34,724 bases of DNA from Desulfurobacteriaceae bacterium (GTDB taxonomy: Bacteria > Aquificota > Aquificia > Desulfurobacteriales > Desulfurobacteriaceae): assembly GCA_027063785.1 (NCBI GenBank), contig JAMORC010000026.1:1-34724 (forward strand). Reading direction: 5' to 3'. A program made the position numbers and the translations under genes. Shown in pieces: positions 27,974-34,724 of this stretch (position 1 is its first letter; every line of letters starts with the position of its first letter). The notes under the pieces are model-generated. The model was given only the letters and a program-made list of their open reading frames with translations, had not been told where the DNA came from and made no database searches.

Positions 27974-28646
27974 GGAAAACGTCGAAAGGATCAAAGAAGA
28001 GATAAGAAAAAGCTGCGAACGGGTAGGAAGAAAGCCGGAGGAGGTTAAACTCCTGGCAGCCTCTAAAACAAGAAGCCCCGATGAGATAAGGGAAGCCTTT
28101 AGGGCGGGAATAAAACTGTTCGGAGAAAACAGGGTTCAAGAAGCAAGAGAAAAGATCCCCCAGCTTAAGGACCTTCCCATTGAATGGCACCTTATCGGTC
28201 ACCTTCAGACTAATAAAGTAAAGTATGCAGTTGAGCTTTTCAACGTTATAGAAACTGTAGACAGGAAAAAGCTGGTAGATGAACTCGTTAAAAGGCTAAA
28301 AGAAGAAAACCTTGAAATCTTTGTTGAAGTCAAGCTCTCTCCGGAAGAGACAAAACACGGGTGTAGTCAAGAAGACCTATTTTCCTTAGTAGAGTACATA
28401 CTGCAGTTTAAAAACCTTAAACTGAAAGGACTTATGACAGTTCCTCCCTACTTCGAAAACCCAGAAGAGGTAAGACCCTTCTTCAGAAAACTAAGAGAGC
28501 TAAGAGACAAACTTGAAAAGGAATTCAGCATCGAACTTCCCGAACTTTCGATGGGAATGTCCCACGACTTTAAAGTGGCCATAGAAGAAGGAGCCACAAT
28601 AGTAAGAATCGGAACAGCTATATTCGGCGAAAGGAGGTACAGATGA
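27963..28646 (+). CDS. yggS: YggS/PROSC-family PLP homeostasis protein
   Basis: Pyridoxal phosphate-binding protein that buffers PLP and affects amino-acid metabolism; no catalytic reaction is established for the family. The 227 residues form an alanine-racemase-like barrel: the PLP lysine in LLAASKTR, the FGENRVQEA motif, WHLIGHLQTNK, and GLMTVPPY and SMGMSHDF near the C-terminus. The ATG at 27963 was chosen because the family begins at about this point and GAGAGG lies upstream; it overlaps the previous gene by 11 bp. Its stop overlaps the aroB' ATG by four bases. In many bacteria yggS sits in the division cluster; here it does not. Confidence 0.95.
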   Translation: MGIKENVERIKEEIRKSCERVGRKPEEVKLLAASKTRSPDEIREAFRAGIKLFGENRVQEAREKIPQLKDLPIEWHLIGHLQTNKVKYAVELFNVIETVDRKKLVDELVKRLKEENLEIFVEVKLSPEETKHGCSQEDLFSLVEYILQFKNLKLKGLMTVPPYFENPEEVRPFFRKLRELRDKLEKEFSIELPELSMGMSHDFKVAIEEGATIVRIGTAIFGERRYR

Positions 28647-29647
28647 AAAAGGAGCTAATAGTTTATGTGAAAGATCCTTCAAACAAAAAAGTTGTAACCG
28701 CGGCCTTAGAATCCGGGGTTTCTGCTATTCTTCTTGAAAAGCCCGAGAGTAAGAAGGTCAAGCAGCTGGCAAAGGTTAAAACAATAGCACCGGACGGTGA
28801 CTATAAGCTCGGAGAGGAATTTGTAATTGTCGAAATAAAGGGAAAAGAAGACGAGGAAAGGGCTGCGGAACTACTGAAACAGGGAAAGAAGGTAATAGTG
28901 AAAACAACAGACTGGACGATCATCCCGCTCGAAAACCTCTTGGCCCAGGGAGATAACGTTTACGCTTGGACAAGGAACGCTGAAGAGGCAAAAACGGCGA
29001 TAACAATACTTGAAAAGGGTGTCAAAGGAGTAGTTCTCGACACGGAAGATGTGAATGAAATCAAAGCAGCGGGAGCCGAGATTAACCTATCCGGTGAAAA
29101 GCTTAAGCTCGAAACTGCAAAGATCAAAAGAGTTAAGCCGATAGGCATGTGTGACAGGGTATGTATTGATACCTGCTCAAACATGGTAAGAGGAGAAGGT
29201 GCTCTGGTGGGTAATTCCTCTGCCGGTATGTTCTTGGTTCACGCAGAAACGGAATCAAACCCTTACGTCGCAGCAAGGCCGTTTAGAGTAAATGCCGGTG
29301 CAGTACACATGTATGTGAGACTTCCCGGAGGGAAGACCAAGTACCTGGCAGAAATAGAAAGCGGAGACGAAGTCATGATATACAACTACAAGGGAGAAGG
29401 GAGAATCGCTTATGTCGGGAGAGCAAAAGTAGAAAAGAGACCAATGCTCCTCATTGAAGCCGAAACGGCTGACGGAAAAAAAGTATCGGCAATACTTCAA
29501 AACGCAGAAACTATACGGCTCACTACTCCTGAGGGGAATCCTATATCAGTAGTCGAGCTGAAAGAAGGAGATGAAGTACTCGTCTACACCGAAGAACCCG
29601 GAAGGCACTTCGGAATGAAGGTAAAGGAAAGTATAGTCGAAAAGTAG
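28643..29647 (+). CDS. aroB': 3-dehydroquinate synthase II (archaeal type)
   Basis: Enzyme of the alternative entry to aromatic amino-acid synthesis known from methanogens, which converts 2-amino-3,7-dideoxy-D-threo-hept-6-ulosonate to 3-dehydroquinate using NAD. The 334 residues carry the family hallmark [14 protein letters not shown] followed by [19 protein letters not shown], plus [19 protein letters not shown] and a C-terminal [10 protein letters not shown]. It is unrelated to the usual AroB. A family member in a bacterium implies that the aldolase (AroA'-type) step is also present elsewhere. Tightly coupled to yggS upstream. Confidence 0.93.
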
Positions 29648-30139: not shown

Positions 30140-31084
30140 ATGAAAGTCCTTGTTACGGGAGGCGCCGGCTTCATCGGCTCCAACCTTACCCTCGAGCTTC
30201 AAAAACGCTTCCCAAAATGGGAAATCGTCGTCCTTGATGACTTTTCATCAGGAGACTTCAGGAACCTAATTGATTTCAAAGGGGAAATCATAACCGGCTC
30301 AATTACGGACAAAGACACTATTGATAAGCTCAGGAAAAGAAGTTTCAACGCCATATTCCACCAAGCAGCAAACGTAAACACAACGGACTCAGACCAAAGA
30401 AGAATGATGGAAATAAACTGCGAAGCCTTTAAGGATATCCTAAACATCGCAAGGGAGTCAAAAGCTCCGGTCATTTACGCTTCATCAGCAGCAGTATACG
30501 GGAACACTAAACCTCCAATGAAAGTAAACGGGGAAGTGAAACCGGAGAACATTTACGGGTTTTCGAAACTCTCTATGGACTACTATGCCTATAAGTTTAT
30601 GGACGAAAACCCCGAAATCCCCGTAGTTGGCCTTAGGTATTTCAACGTTTACGGTCCAAGGGAACAGCACAAAGGGAAAATGGCCAGCATGATCCTCCAA
30701 CTCACTGTTCAAATTCTTAAGGGAAAAAAACCAAGACTCTTTAAATGGGGAGAACAAAGAAGGGATTTTGTCCACGTTTTCGACTGCGTCGAGGCAAACA
30801 TAAAAGCTTTTGAGTCAGGAAAAAGCGGCATAGTAAACGTAGGAACCGGAAAGGCAAGGAGCTTCAATGAAGTCGTTGAGCTGATAAAGAAAAGCCTCCA
30901 GGTTGAAGTAGAAGTTGAGTACTTCGACAACCCTTACGATTTTTACCAAAACTACACGGAAGCCGACCTAACAGAAACGGTAAAACTTCTTAACTGGCAC
31001 CCCGGCATACAGATCGAGGAAGGCATCCCATCCTACGTAGAATGGATAAAGGAAAATGTCAATTGGGAGAAGCTACCCTATTAA
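30140..31084 (+). CDS. hldD: ADP-L-glycero-D-manno-heptose 6-epimerase
   Basis: Short-chain dehydrogenase/reductase-type epimerase that makes the ADP-heptose used in lipopolysaccharide inner core. The 314 residues have the NAD(P)-binding GGAGFIGSN (7-15), ASSAAVYG, the YGFSK catalytic Tyr/Lys motif, and the strongly diagnostic FNVYGPREQHKGKMASM, nearly the HldD consensus. RRDFVHVFDCV and NVGTGKARSFNEVV also match. This gene supports a Gram-negative envelope. Other heptose genes (gmhA, hldE) are not adjacent. A hairpin follows the stop. Confidence 0.93.
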   Translation: MKVLVTGGAGFIGSNLTLELQKRFPKWEIVVLDDFSSGDFRNLIDFKGEIITGSITDKDTIDKLRKRSFNAIFHQAANVNTTDSDQRRMMEINCEAFKDILNIARESKAPVIYASSAAVYGNTKPPMKVNGEVKPENIYGFSKLSMDYYAYKFMDENPEIPVVGLRYFNVYGPREQHKGKMASMILQLTVQILKGKKPRLFKWGEQRRDFVHVFDCVEANIKAFESGKSGIVNVGTGKARSFNEVVELIKKSLQVEVEVEYFDNPYDFYQNYTEADLTETVKLLNWHPGIQIEEGIPSYVEWIKENVNWEKLPY

Positions 31085-31087
31085 AGT

Positions 31088-31105
31088 CCGGAGCCTCCGC
31101 TCCGG
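31088..31105 (+). terminator. Hairpin after hldD, weak terminator candidate
   Basis: A 7-bp stem CCGGAGC / GCTCCGG with a CTCC loop lies four bases after the hldD stop. It is followed by GCTATTCCACTATTT, which is only moderately T-rich, so termination is uncertain. Confidence 0.45.
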
Positions 31106-31191
31106 GCTATTCCACTATTTCTAATCCCGGTTAAATCGAGTTATTTTTATGGCCATGCTGACATAAACCAGCATTTCTTAAAAAGCTTTGA

Positions 31192-31197
31192 TATACT
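31192..31197 (+). promoter_or_regulatory. -10 candidate for the PEBP/beta-CASP genes
   Basis: TATACT reads toward the PEBP-family gene with a leader of about 22 nt and a GAGG ribosome-binding site before the ATG. No -35 is clear at 16-18 bp upstream. Confidence 0.35.
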
Positions 31198-31225
31198 GAA
31201 AGTGTAACCCTTTTGCGAGGACAAA

Positions 31226-31684
31226 ATGAGAATATTCAGCCCGGTTTTCGGAAACGGGGAGTTCATTTCCGTCAAGTACACCTGCGACGGCATGGACATA
31301 TCACCGCCGCTTTTATTCTTAGAAGTTCCGGAAAGCGTTAAAAGCTTTGCACTGCTGGTTGACGATCCCGATGCTCCCACGGGCGTTTTCACCCACTGGA
31401 TTATCTACGACATACCCGGGGAATTTGAAGGACTACCGGAGGATATCCCTCCAGCTCCGGAACTTGAATACGGCATAAAACAGGGAGTAAACAGTTTCGG
31501 CCGAATCGGATACGGAGGCCCCTGCCCGCCCCCCGGAAAACCTCACAGGTACTTCTTCGTCCTGTTCGGGCTTGACGTCCCCAACCTCGGAATACCTGCC
31601 GGTGCCGACAAAGCAACGTTCCTTGAAGCCATAGAAGGACATGTTGTTGCCCAAGACGAGCTTGTAGGTCTATACGGCAGATAA
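31226..31684 (+). CDS. PEBP-family protein (YbhB/YbcL type)
   Basis: Phosphatidylethanolamine-binding-protein-like cytoplasmic protein of 152 residues, the usual bacterial length. Visible signatures are the N-terminal ISVKYTCDGMDISPPL, the ligand-pocket DDPDAPTGVFTHW, and GGPCPPPGKPHRYFFVLF. The bacterial members have no clear biochemical role; archaeal and E. coli homologs are described mainly by structure. It is 14 bp ahead of the beta-CASP gene and probably co-transcribed with it. Confidence 0.93.
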   Translation: MRIFSPVFGNGEFISVKYTCDGMDISPPLLFLEVPESVKSFALLVDDPDAPTGVFTHWIIYDIPGEFEGLPEDIPPAPELEYGIKQGVNSFGRIGYGGPCPPPGKPHRYFFVLFGLDVPNLGIPAGADKATFLEAIEGHVVAQDELVGLYGR

Positions 31685-31698
31685 TAAATTTCTGGCCT

Positions 31699-32955
31699 AT
31701 GGAAAACCTCTTTATACCCATAGGCGGCGGAAACGAAATAGGGGCAAGCTGTTACCTCTACATTGTCGGCGGAACAAGACTTATCATAGACTCCGGGATA
31801 AGGTTTGACAGGGAACCTTTCCCGGATTTTGATCTTTTAAAAAGCATAGCTTCCGAAGTAGATGCCATTCTGGTAACCCATGCCCATATTGATCACTGCG
31901 GAAGCATTCACGTGCTTTCAAACCTGTACCCGGAAGCTCCCATATACGCTACCAACGAAACTGTTCAGCTCCTCTCCCTGATGGTTGAAGACGCCATAAA
32001 GGTTAGACACATAAAGGAGAGGAACTCCCCCCAAGAGTGGAAGGAATACAAGCTTCTCGATAAAGCTCTAACAAAAGTTGAAAGGAGGGAGTTTTTTGAT
32101 TCTATAAAGGTCGGTGACGTTGAAATACAGTTTTTTCCCTCAGGACATATAATGGGAGCTTCCTCAATAAAGATCTCCTACGATGATTCCTCGTCGCTCT
32201 TTCACACCGGAGACATCTCCCTTTCACCTCAGAGAACGGTCGGCAGAGCAGAAATACCGGATGAATCGGTAGATTTCCTCGTTTCCGAAAGCACCTACCT
32301 TTCAAGTAGCAGGAAAAAATCCAGAGAGGAAGCCGAGGAAGAATTCTTCTCAGCACTCAGGAACGTTTTTGAAAAAAAAGGAAAAGTCTTAATACCCGTT
32401 TTTGCTCTCGGAAGGGCACAGGAGATTATCTCCCTCATGACTGAGGGGATGAAAGAGGGCAAAATACCGCCTGTCACAGTGTATGTTGACGGACTTGCAA
32501 GAGAAGTCACCAATATTTACGAAAACTTCCTTCGCAGGAAGCTCTTTAATTTTTACGTTCAGCCTGCCCCGACTTACGAAGGAATTTCCTTTGAAGAAGC
32601 TTGCGAGGAAAATTTAAGGGAAGCCGACTGTATAATAGCAACCTCCGGAATGCTTATGGAAGGAACTCCTTCCTACATCTACGCCAAACTCCTCTCGAAA
32701 GACCCGAGAAGTGCCATACTCTTTAGCGGTTACTTGGTTGAGGAAAGCTTCGGTTACAGGTTGTTAAGGGAAAAGGAACTTCTAAAAAGCTTTAAGTGCA
32801 AAATCGAAAGCCATCACTTTTCCGCCCACTCAGACAGAAGCGAACTTCTCTCCATAGTAGAGAAGCTCTCTCCCCGGAAAAATGTCTTCATTCACGGCTT
32901 CCCGGGAGAAAACTTCAAAGACCACGCCTTTAACAGGGAGGTTGTAAGGTTTTGA
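31699..32955 (+). CDS. Beta-CASP metallo-beta-lactamase-fold RNA nuclease (CPSF-like)
   Basis: Predicted ribonuclease of 418 residues. The metallo-beta-lactamase motifs are all present: motif 1 (Asp in IIDSGI), motif 2 HAHIDHCG, motif 3 SGHIMGAS and motif 4 FHTGDIS. The beta-CASP insertion has PVFALGRAQEI, and motifs A-C are visible as SEST, HHFSAHSDR and FIHGFPGE. No KH domain precedes the core, unlike many archaeal CPSF1 proteins, so it is closer to the short bacterial/archaeal YSH1-like enzymes than to RNase J. No Shine-Dalgarno precedes the ATG; it may depend on readthrough from the PEBP gene 14 bp upstream. Its stop overlaps the TTG start of the next gene. Confidence 0.93.
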   Translation: MENLFIPIGGGNEIGASCYLYIVGGTRLIIDSGIRFDREPFPDFDLLKSIASEVDAILVTHAHIDHCGSIHVLSNLYPEAPIYATNETVQLLSLMVEDAIKVRHIKERNSPQEWKEYKLLDKALTKVERREFFDSIKVGDVEIQFFPSGHIMGASSIKISYDDSSSLFHTGDISLSPQRTVGRAEIPDESVDFLVSESTYLSSSRKKSREEAEEEFFSALRNVFEKKGKVLIPVFALGRAQEIISLMTEGMKEGKIPPVTVYVDGLAREVTNIYENFLRRKLFNFYVQPAPTYEGISFEEACEENLREADCIIATSGMLMEGTPSYIYAKLLSKDPRSAILFSGYLVEESFGYRLLREKELLKSFKCKIESHHFSAHSDRSELLSIVEKLSPRKNVFIHGFPGENFKDHAFNREVVRF

Positions 32956-34403
32956 GACTCTACCTCGGATATCCGGAATCTGCCCTTGGAGGGGAGTGTT
33001 TTAAGCTGAAAGATCTATTCCTCAAAGAGGTCTCTGTTGACTATACTTCAGTTCCGGTTGAGGTTAAGAAGAAGCTCCTTTCCCTCCTGGATAATTTGGA
33101 AAAGAAAAACTACCTCTTCATCGGAGAAGTCTTCTACGATGCCATTGACTTACTTGAGTTTGCCCTCTTCTCAGTAGAGAGCAGGGAAGTAGAAGAACTG
33201 TTACTACCCGGTTACTTGTACGGAAAATCTACCTACCTTGTAAGGAAGTTAATGAAAGAAACTTTCGGAAAAAGAGTTTCCGTCTACTACGACTTCAACC
33301 TCTTTTCCGAAAAGGAGATCGTTCTTAACATCGGATACACCAGAAGCTCCTTCTCAATAGGAGGAAAGTTCCTTGTAATTTTTCCACTCGGAGAGTTCCA
33401 CGTAATAGACCTTTTAGGTAACTACCTGTTTAACAGATTTGTTTTTGAATCCGGATTATCAAACACCCAGTTAAGGAAAGAAGGAATAAGGGGAAAACTT
33501 CTTGACGACTGCAGGGCTCAAGCTGCCAGGATACTCTTCGGAAGAAGCAAATCCGTCATTATTGACGACTTTAACTACAAAAGAAGTGTTACTCCCGAGG
33601 AGATCTCCTCTGTCCTCTCCCCCATCATCGGGAGGGCAGTTTACGGAGATTGGGTAGAAAAAGCTTTTGACTTTTCAAGCCTGCTTGTTCTTTCCCTGTA
33701 TAGGTATGAGGAGTTTTTCAGGGAAAGACCCAAAATTCTCTCAATTAACATCATCGGTCGGCTTACGTTCCCCTTCGAAGAAGCTCTTTCCAGAAACTTT
33801 CCAGTCAAGATTAGGAGGTTTAACGCCCAAACTATCACTTCTCTTCCAGTCAAAAACAAGAATTTTAAAATAACACTGAGAAACATTCCGGTAGGCAAGG
33901 ACGTCTCCAGGTTTTCCATCAACTACGAAAAAGCCGACGATTCAACCCTTGAGACACTAAGGGCATTTTACCTTAAAAGAAACCTGAAGGGACTCTCCAT
34001 AATAGAGGAGCTTTCTCAAAAAAAAATAAACAGCGAAGAGAAAGAGAAATTCATCTACGAGCTTATAAGTATTTTAAAAAGGTCTTCCTTTAGAACAAAA
34101 AAAGAAATTGCTTACATAAACTATGACCTTGCTGCACTAACAAAGCTGGAAATTCCAAAACATCTTTTTGCTAAAGTCCTCAGAGAAATAGAAGACAAAG
34201 CCTTTAACTGGCTTCTCCCCTTTGAAACCAAGATAAACATCCTCTATTTCTGCTACGAAAATGCAGAAAAACTAAGAGACACAAAGCTCGAAGTCTTTCC
34301 AGCGCTAATGCTTTCCTATATAAGAGATAAAAAAATTACCGAAGGTGAAAAGAACTTCATCAGAACAGTCGCCGAAGCGTTTTACGGTACACCAAGAAAA
34401 TAG
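32952..34403 (+). CDS. Unknown 483-residue protein coupled to the beta-CASP nuclease
   Basis: I do not recognise this protein. It begins with TTG overlapping the stop of the nuclease gene (TTGA), so translation is probably coupled. There is no signal peptide or convincing membrane segment. Residues 1-230 alternate beta and helical stretches with glycine-rich turns (LYLGYPESALGGE, LLLPGYLYGKSTY, LNIGYTRSSFSIGG), and the VLNIGYTRSSFSIG segment with the following LVIFPLGEFHVIDLLG loosely resembles an actin/Hsp70-type phosphate loop pair. Residues 340-483 are helical and Lys-rich. No cysteine clusters are evident. The gene is AT-richer toward its 3' end. A function with the nuclease is suggested only by position. 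Confidence 0.75.
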   Translation: MRLYLGYPESALGGECFKLKDLFLKEVSVDYTSVPVEVKKKLLSLLDNLEKKNYLFIGEVFYDAIDLLEFALFSVESREVEELLLPGYLYGKSTYLVRKLMKETFGKRVSVYYDFNLFSEKEIVLNIGYTRSSFSIGGKFLVIFPLGEFHVIDLLGNYLFNRFVFESGLSNTQLRKEGIRGKLLDDCRAQAARILFGRSKSVIIDDFNYKRSVTPEEISSVLSPIIGRAVYGDWVEKAFDFSSLLVLSLYRYEEFFRERPKILSINIIGRLTFPFEEALSRNFPVKIRRFNAQTITSLPVKNKNFKITLRNIPVGKDVSRFSINYEKADDSTLETLRAFYLKRNLKGLSIIEELSQKKINSEEKEKFIYELISILKRSSFRTKKEIAYINYDLAALTKLEIPKHLFAKVLREIEDKAFNWLLPFETKINILYFCYENAEKLRDTKLEVFPALMLSYIRDKKITEGEKNFIRTVAEAFYGTPRK

Positions 34404-34543
34404 AAAATTGAAAGCTAAACCACACATACCAGCCTTTGCTTCTTTTCCGTTCTATTCTTAATAAAAACCTATCAGATAATGTAATCCTCCAAATTTGGAC
34501 ACCATTCGGTTACAGGAGAATTACAGCTGTTCTTTCAGCAAAT

Positions 34544-34568
34544 AAAAAAAAGCGGGCTTAAAGCCCGC
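34544..34568 (-). terminator. Rho-independent terminator of the acl/ccl gene
   Basis: Read on the minus strand, a 6-bp stem of pure G/C (GCGGGC / GCCCGC, 34552-34557 with 34563-34568) and a five-base loop is followed by eight T (34544-34551). It lies 17 bp after the stop of the minus-strand gene and faces the end of the plus-strand unit. The 180 bp between 34403 and 34585 otherwise shows no gene. Confidence 0.88.
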
Positions 34569-34584
34569 CTTTGAAATTTTTAGT

Positions 34585-34724
34585 TTACGCTTCCTCGGGC
34601 CTCTTAACGTCGTAGAGAATATCGTCCCATGGGTGCCTGTAGAGAGGCATGGCAAGGCGCTTCTCATCAAGGATGTGGCCGATAAATCCGATAGAACGGC
34701 CGAGGACAAAGAAGGCGTTAAACG
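34585..34724 (-). CDS. aclA: ATP-citrate lyase large subunit or citryl-CoA lyase, C-terminal 45 codons
   Basis: Only the end of the gene is in the window. The readable residues contain [15 protein letters not shown] and [12 protein letters not shown], the near-invariant C-terminal signature shared by ATP-citrate lyase and by the separate citryl-CoA lyase of Aquificaceae. This part forms the citrate-synthase-like lyase domain that splits citryl-CoA. Either enzyme runs the citrate-cleaving step of the reductive TCA cycle. With the rest cut off, the two cannot be separated; I favour AclA because the gene content fits Desulfurobacteriaceae, whose members are reported to use ATP-citrate lyase. A strong terminator follows. 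Confidence 0.8.

Follow-up and report, generated by a model that had tools for sequence, protein, structure and literature searches.

The window, the whole 34,724-base stretch of DNA analysed here, is an entire contig of a 1.57-Mb genome from the Desulfurobacteriaceae, a family of hot-vent bacteria. It encodes a β-CASP nuclease (P0001) and, overlapping its end on the same strand, a partner protein (P0002). An upstream gene, which we take to be PEBP-like, probably forms one operon with the pair (Table 1). The P0002 start codon, TTG at 32952–32954, overlaps the nuclease stop codon, TGA at 32953–32955, and a GGGAGG motif lies ∼10 nt 5′ of the TTG, within the P0001 codons for the conserved C-terminal residues NREV. 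Before the TTG, the P0002 frame stays open for just 18 nt, which leaves this codon as the sole credible start. The most conserved residues of the protein (Y4, G6, Y7, P8, and S10) lie right at the N terminus, which also indicates that the start is correct. Scans of positions 31000–34724 for promoters, terminators, and Rfam families returned nothing relevant to the pair. Operon pairing by itself is no proof of contact between P0001 and P0002.

Table 1. Coordinates of the gene pair, its predicted domains, and the upstream gene in the window
Feature	Position	Strand	Basis or occurrence
Putative PEBP-like gene upstream of P0001, 14 nt gap	31226..31684	+	Occurs in 11/20 loci
β-CASP metallo-β-lactamase-fold nuclease P0001, 418 aa	31699..32955	+	ORF; Pfam domains
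TTGA stop/start overlap, translational coupling	32952..32955	+	20/20 loci
Partner protein P0002, 483 aa, TTG start	32952..34403	+	ORF; restricted to Desulfurobacteriaceae
Hsp70/actin (ASKHA) fold, P0002 residues 1–300, catalytic aspartates putatively substituted	32952..33851	+	Predicted model; putative residue mapping
ARM/HEAT-like eight-helix solenoid, P0002 residues 328–483	33933..34400	+	Predicted model

Conservation of the gene pair

Among 136 Aquificota genomes, P0002 was found in 20, one copy in each, and all of these belong to the Desulfurobacteriaceae (20 of the 22 genomes of the family). An orthologue of P0001 (57%–100% identity) is present in the same 20 genomes and in no other of the 136; within this set, neither P0002 nor a nuclease orthologue of at least 57% identity was found without the other. 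The two genomes of the family that lack P0002 are 83% and 85% complete; one has the second nuclease copy only, and the other has no nuclease match. A single scan of a genome collection with two exact, conserved P0002 peptide patterns, which distant relatives elsewhere could escape, returned nine loci, all nine from Desulfurobacteriaceae, Desulfurobacterium, or Thermovibrio. A viral origin of P0002 was considered and rejected, as no relative of the protein was found in the phage, plasmid, or viral-contig collections.

The TTG start, the TTGA overlap, and the adjacency to the nuclease are kept at all 20 homologous loci, and ten catalytic positions are invariant in the 19 nuclease orthologues that were aligned, which argues that the coupling has not arisen by chance. 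P0001 and P0002 are the only genes common to the 20 neighbourhoods (loci L027 and L028 contribute little or no upstream sequence to this count). The flanking genes vary, with a presumed radical-SAM-like gene at 13 loci and the PEBP-like gene at 11, so the conserved linkage is that of P0001 with P0002 specifically. Across 19 genomes, the pairwise distances among the nucleases track those among the partners with a correlation of 0.93 (shared ancestry uncorrected); mean identity among orthologues is 67% in P0001 and 52% in P0002. The first-pass annotation of this DNA had described a nuclease with a complete set of catalytic motifs and a second gene starting inside its stop codon, and had taken the two to be coupled. 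The ORFs, the motifs, and the coupling are borne out, and the survey of neighbourhoods that it proposed finds the linkage to the nuclease at every locus. The pattern that it had named as contrary to this picture, a P0002 gene widespread without the nuclease, was seen neither in the Aquificota genomes nor in the pattern scan or the phage, plasmid, and viral collections. Its reading of the two proteins as possible subunits of an RNA-processing complex is thereby supported in part.

In small, streamlined genomes, operons stay compact and neighbouring genes often overlap at their stop and start codons. The two genes could thus be operon neighbours whose products do not touch, co-made for expression only, with P0002 serving another step such as the binding of a ligand that reports RNA stress. 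This explanation is improbable, given that every other neighbour varies over the 20 loci while the pair is constant.

The nuclease P0001 and its relatives

P0001 matches the Pfam families Lactamase_B (2.9e-13), Beta-Casp (7.3e-15), and RMMBL (1.7e-8), all above cut-off. The profile search of PDB sequences returned INTS11 (224 bits), aCPSF1 (204), CPSF73 (193), Cas14 (156), and TTHA0252 (129). Residues D31, H61, H63, D65, H66, H150, D172, E197, H377, and H399 are the ten invariant positions, counted over 19 orthologues since the twentieth is cut by a contig end and was left out of the alignment. P0001 has MBL motifs 1–4 (D172 belonging to motif 4) and β-CASP motifs A, B, and C. From its sequence, we infer that P0001 is a metal-dependent β-CASP RNase of the INTS11/CPSF73/aCPSF1 type, with RNA as its likely substrate; some β-CASP enzymes cut DNA.

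The catalytic fold and motifs of P0001 are the same as those of INTS11, CPSF73, and aCPSF1 (FttA). Unlike these enzymes, P0001 is bacterial and is accompanied by a partner with a predicted Hsp70 fold, and it has none of the KH domains of aCPSF1 (nor any RNA-binding extension). Against the aCPSF1 model (TIGR03675), it scored 239.9 bits with a cut-off of 580.2, the match starting at profile position 180 of 631. Scores were also below cut-off for the models of the type VII CRISPR protein Cas14 (NF045584; 186.7 against 800 bits) and of RNase J (TIGR00649; 61.5 against 400 bits). The second nuclease copy, of the TTHA0252 type and widespread in Aquificota, belongs to the same superfamily, with ∼30% identity to P0001. 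It differs in forming a separate clade (100/100) and in having its best NCBIfam score with Cas14, not aCPSF1. As P0002 has one match per genome, beside P0001, the second copy is without such a partner.

On a 24-row tree, P0001 is placed with other bacterial sequences in a 15-row clade (100/100), apart from the TTHA0252-like copy and aCPSF1. Sampling for the tree is poor: of the 20 window-type nucleases it includes 8, together with 6 of the second copies and 10 plasmid rows. Alternative groupings with Deinococcus (p-AU 0.151) and Herpetosiphon (0.072) were not rejected by the AU test; groupings with cyanobacteria (p 0.02) and with the one aCPSF1 sampled, a single long row (p-AU 0.0003), were rejected. 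Gene transfer from archaea, as the aCPSF1 score might suggest, is contradicted both by this last rejection and by the position of P0001 within the bacterial clade. The viral-contig matches of P0001 resemble ordinary β-CASP genes. At L115 and L116, two of the three loci of one set (a second set has four), the ORF lists were inspected and showed no Hsp70-like neighbour by eye.

The search of a plasmid collection with P0001 gave 277 records, and the neighbours of the best 12 were inspected. Two of these 12, from Priestia megaterium pNCT2_2 and Klebsiella grimontii pNY3A, share the gene order β-CASP nuclease, uncharacterised protein, Hsp70, and HEAT-repeat protein, the Hsp70 and HEAT companions being identified by Pfam in both. 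The Hsp70 of pNY3A is annotated as two ORFs. No Hsp70 annotation lies within 4 to 5 kb on each side of the nuclease in the other ten. Between the two operons, identity is 38% for the nucleases (over the alignment), 30% for the uncharacterised proteins, and 42% for the Hsp70s. The two plasmid nucleases are sister to P0001 on the 24-row tree at 86/94, a relation not significantly better than the Deinococcus and Herpetosiphon alternatives. No near match of the plasmid operon was found in E. coli genomes, and phage records contain just weak, unannotated relatives of the nuclease. Searches of the other plasmids and of viral contigs found nothing related to the uncharacterised protein. By eye, its C terminus seems to us to recall GrpE; hhalign gave the same place at a probability of 0.3%, and there was no Pfam match, so this assignment was rejected.

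The plasmid operons thus have a nuclease of P0001's bacterial clade together with Hsp70 and HEAT companions. They differ from the pair in comprising at least four separate genes, with a true Hsp70, a nuclease with a long N-terminal extension, and an uncharacterised protein that is not similar to P0002. Since the closest sampled nucleases lie with Hsp70 and HEAT genes, and P0001 lies with a protein predicted to have the shape of a degenerate Hsp70 plus HEAT/ARM helices, the parallel is suggestive; it may still be a coincidence. The same relatives, on plasmids of Bacillota and Pseudomonadota, raise the question of whether the pair is a chromosomal branch of these operons acting as a defence module against phages or mobile elements. 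This seems unlikely, as the pair differs from patchy defence genes in its presence as a single copy in 20 of the 22 family genomes and in its correlated distances (0.93), and PADLOC matches neither protein.

A further likeness is to CoCoNuT systems, for which the published account describes degenerate Hsp70-like and HEAT-like domains with RNases and predicts RNA targeting or binding (PMC11090510). In CnuD and its relatives, as described there, a degenerate Hsp70-like domain and HEAT-like helices stand beside an RNase, much as predicted for P0002. The CoCoNuT systems of that account have McrB GTPases and HEPN RNases; here, the nuclease is a β-CASP enzyme instead. By this analogy, the likeness is one of logic, not of membership.

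Predicted fold and nucleotide site of the partner protein P0002

No credible match to P0002 was found in Pfam, NCBIfam, or PADLOC, nor among PDB sequences with either the single protein or a profile. None of the 20 members matched PF00012 at E ≤ 0.1. In hhalign, the probability was 0.6% against six DnaK proteins and 0.3%–1% for the DnaK, MreB, and FtsA profiles, and no similarity to the plasmid-operon proteins was found with the P0002 profile. The diversity of this profile is low (Neff 2.3), so its negative results are weak evidence of absence. The AlphaFold2 model, built with 20 aligned orthologues, has a pLDDT of 92.1 and a pTM of 0.91. In Foldseek, its best matches are Hsp70 proteins (E 0.001, probability 1.00; none under E 0.001), and ParM and MreB are also in the list. 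Residues 1–300 match the DnaK structure 4rtf in VIA with a Z score of 16.8 and an rmsd of 3.7 over 272 aligned residues, and the two-lobed, actin-type fold of ASKHA proteins is present in the predicted model. As there is no sequence similarity to the DnaK, MreB, or FtsA profiles, the likeness is one of predicted fold and need not mean descent from Hsp70 specifically. The best structural matches of P0002 in BFVD are a phage G protein (E 0.0018) and a closterovirus Hsp70 homologue (E 0.015).

The C-terminal region, residues 328–483, was also folded alone, from an alignment that contained 15 of the 20 orthologues, and gave eight helices with a pLDDT of 92.6; residues 333–478 are entirely helical in both models. 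Compared with ARM/HEAT proteins, these helices have a best VIA Z score of 11.7 (importin-α ARM), short of the ∼13 under which the tool advises caution with helical proteins, and the arrangement may be a common one. No Pfam repeat signature was found in P0002, and the β-sandwich substrate-binding domain of Hsp70 is absent from its predicted secondary structure. P0002 is thus predicted to consist of an Hsp70/actin (ASKHA) fold and an ARM/HEAT-like solenoid. The first-pass annotation had called this protein one without recognisable domains and had advised sensitive profile and structure searches; its description holds for sequence libraries and profiles, which return nothing, and fails for structure, where the predicted fold is apparent. 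The faint resemblance to actin-like phosphate-binding loops that it noted is real, as the model has hairpins of the Hsp70/actin fold at these positions, with the catalytic residues apparently replaced.

The nucleotide site was mapped by eye from the order of strands and helices in the model and the positions of the DnaK motifs. In this putative placement, phosphate loop 1 of DnaK (D8-L-G10) corresponds to Y4-L-G6 of P0002, phosphate loop 2 (D193-F-G195) to N126-I-G128, and the adenosine loop (G338-G339) to G269-R270. Residues Y4, N126, G269, and R270 are invariant in all 20 members. If the mapping holds, the catalytic residues of the ASKHA family are not retained: the two Mg-binding aspartates are replaced by Y4 and N126 and the second glycine of the adenosine loop by R270, while the pocket-shaping first glycines are kept in every member. 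P0002 is therefore probably a pseudo-ATPase, as judged from the modelled site; alternatively, the substitutions would fit a pocket for a ligand other than Mg-ATP. P0002 differs from Hsp70, whose nucleotide-binding domain its residues 1–300 are predicted to resemble, in having no detectable sequence similarity, in the apparent loss of the Mg-binding aspartates, and in having no substrate-binding domain.

The ASKHA fold is common to ParM and MreB, which also occur in the Foldseek list, and P0002 might instead be an actin-like filament protein of their type, with the task of placing the nuclease within the cell. There is little to recommend this reading, as the 50 VIA matches listed are of the Hsp70 type, not MreB or ParM, the residues of the nucleotide site are substituted, and there is no profile match to MreB.

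A further possibility is suggested by the genomic background. Hsp70 (PF00012) was found in none of 24 genomes of the order Desulfurobacteriales and in all six genomes searched outside it; GrpE above cut-off was found in none of the 24 and in all eight genomes chosen outside. The loss of Hsp70 in Desulfurobacterium and Thermovibrio is already published, according to the passage of a review that cites it (Warnecke, 2012, in PMC8215388). Together with the Hsp70-type fold of P0002, this could mean that the protein has diverged strongly but still functions as a chaperone driven by ATP, standing in for DnaK in this family, with its adjacency to the nuclease being incidental. Such a role is very unlikely for a protein without the β-sandwich domain, with Tyr and Asn at the mapped Mg-binding positions in all 20 members, and with invariant coupling to a nuclease, in an order where GrpE is likewise not found. 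The other family of the order (two genomes, one 64% complete) has neither Hsp70 nor P0002, which indicates that P0002 is not simply a replacement for Hsp70.

A proposed complex of nuclease and partner

Because the nuclease and P0002 are always encoded together, they probably work as one machine. The reading preferred here, with a probability of about 60%, is that the two proteins form one complex in which P0002 positions or restrains the nuclease on RNA. P0002 would be a dedicated, noncatalytic subunit, composed of the pseudo-ATPase domain and the ARM/HEAT-like solenoid, and overlapping translation would ensure that both products are made together. By docking on P0001, it would lend a nuclease that has no RNA-binding extension a helical scaffold along with a rigid domain of two lobes. 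It may then present or screen RNA, or an RNA-bound protein, such that cleavage by P0001 is targeted or held in check. Candidates for the interface are invariant residues such as R175, K176, G178, R180, and G181, and the C-terminal NREV of the nuclease.

In eukaryotes, CPSF73 and INTS11 are held on large helical scaffolds, and nucleases of their types cut RNA 3′ ends; aCPSF1 terminates transcription in archaea. A β-CASP nuclease with a scaffold subunit would thus be of a known kind, and the surprise, if the model is right, would be a family-wide partner with a pseudo-Hsp70 fold in bacteria that lack Hsp70. In the open-licence literature, no paper was found on a β-CASP nuclease paired with an Hsp70-, actin-, or HEAT-like partner. 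If the proposed complex exists, its two-gene bacterial version would be a small, testable model of what directs or restrains nucleases of these types, and an Hsp70-type domain would have been retained for RNA work after the chaperone was abandoned. The pair also bears on the question of why Hsp70-like domains occur beside RNases.

A broader and rather doubtful extension is an undescribed class of bacterial nuclease–chaperone machines, in which β-CASP RNases are run by Hsp70/HEAT subunits. Plasmids would carry the version with a live Hsp70. In the Desulfurobacteriaceae, where no recognisable Hsp70 is left, the Hsp70 and HEAT parts would persist fused in a single pseudo-ATPase protein, by now a core component of a nuclease for RNA processing or termination. 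Were this true, the last Hsp70-fold relic of a bacterium without DnaK would be a nuclease subunit and not a chaperone. Entries for BRAT1-INTS9-INTS11, Integrator, and symplekin occur among the many unrelated helical matches of the P0002 solenoid.

An operon shared by two plasmids

An operon containing a β-CASP nuclease related to that of the window is conserved between a Bacillota plasmid (Priestia megaterium pNCT2_2) and a Pseudomonadota plasmid (Klebsiella grimontii pNY3A). In both, it encodes the nuclease, which bears an N-terminal extension, an uncharacterised protein (476 and 527 aa, respectively), an Hsp70 and a HEAT-repeat protein, and a gene annotated as an HNH endonuclease lies farther downstream. 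The operon may encode a previously undescribed system for defence or RNA control. The annotation splits the K. grimontii Hsp70 gene into two overlapping ORFs, so either a frameshift or a sequencing error may have disrupted this copy.

On two Nostoc plasmids, a ParM/StbA-family (actin-like) gene was observed ∼0.6 to 3.7 kb upstream of a related β-CASP gene, with further genes intervening. It probably serves plasmid partition and is not a partner of the nuclease.

Variant C termini and a second nuclease

The reading frame of one partner orthologue (genome G008) stops at 477 residues and is otherwise intact; its alignment with the window protein extends past this stop by one or two residues. Putative C-terminal extensions of ∼25 to 75 residues were seen in three other orthologues, and those at L024 and L027 run into the downstream gene.

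The genome also encodes a second, TTHA0252-like β-CASP nuclease. A gene for a small protein (∼140–144 aa) immediately precedes the nuclease in all six family loci viewed.

Other features of the window

A strong terminator-like stem separates the partner gene from a converging gene, which is interrupted by the contig end and whose C terminus, we presume, resembles ATP-citrate lyase. Another gene is one that we take to resemble archaeal-type 3-dehydroquinate synthase II, here in a bacterium.

Coordinates of the features discussed
Feature	Locus or window	Source coordinates
Operon, P. megaterium plasmid	L118 4449-11236	NZ_CP032530.1 108061-114918
Operon, K. grimontii plasmid	L119 3948-11296	CP079755.1 172731-180340
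Hsp70 gene, K. grimontii plasmid	L119 8043-9826	
ParM/StbA-family gene, Nostoc plasmid	L122 294-1250	
ParM/StbA-family gene, Nostoc plasmid	L145 1742-2698	
Partner orthologue, G008	L023 7028-8458	
Partner orthologue, putative extension	L032 8256-9932	
Partner orthologue, putative extension	L024 5466-6992	
Partner orthologue, putative extension	L027 8017-9543	
TTHA0252-like nuclease, window genome	L109 982-2361	G000:C17:30502-31758
Terminator-like stem	window 34548-34572	
Presumed dehydroquinate synthase II-like gene	window 28643-29647
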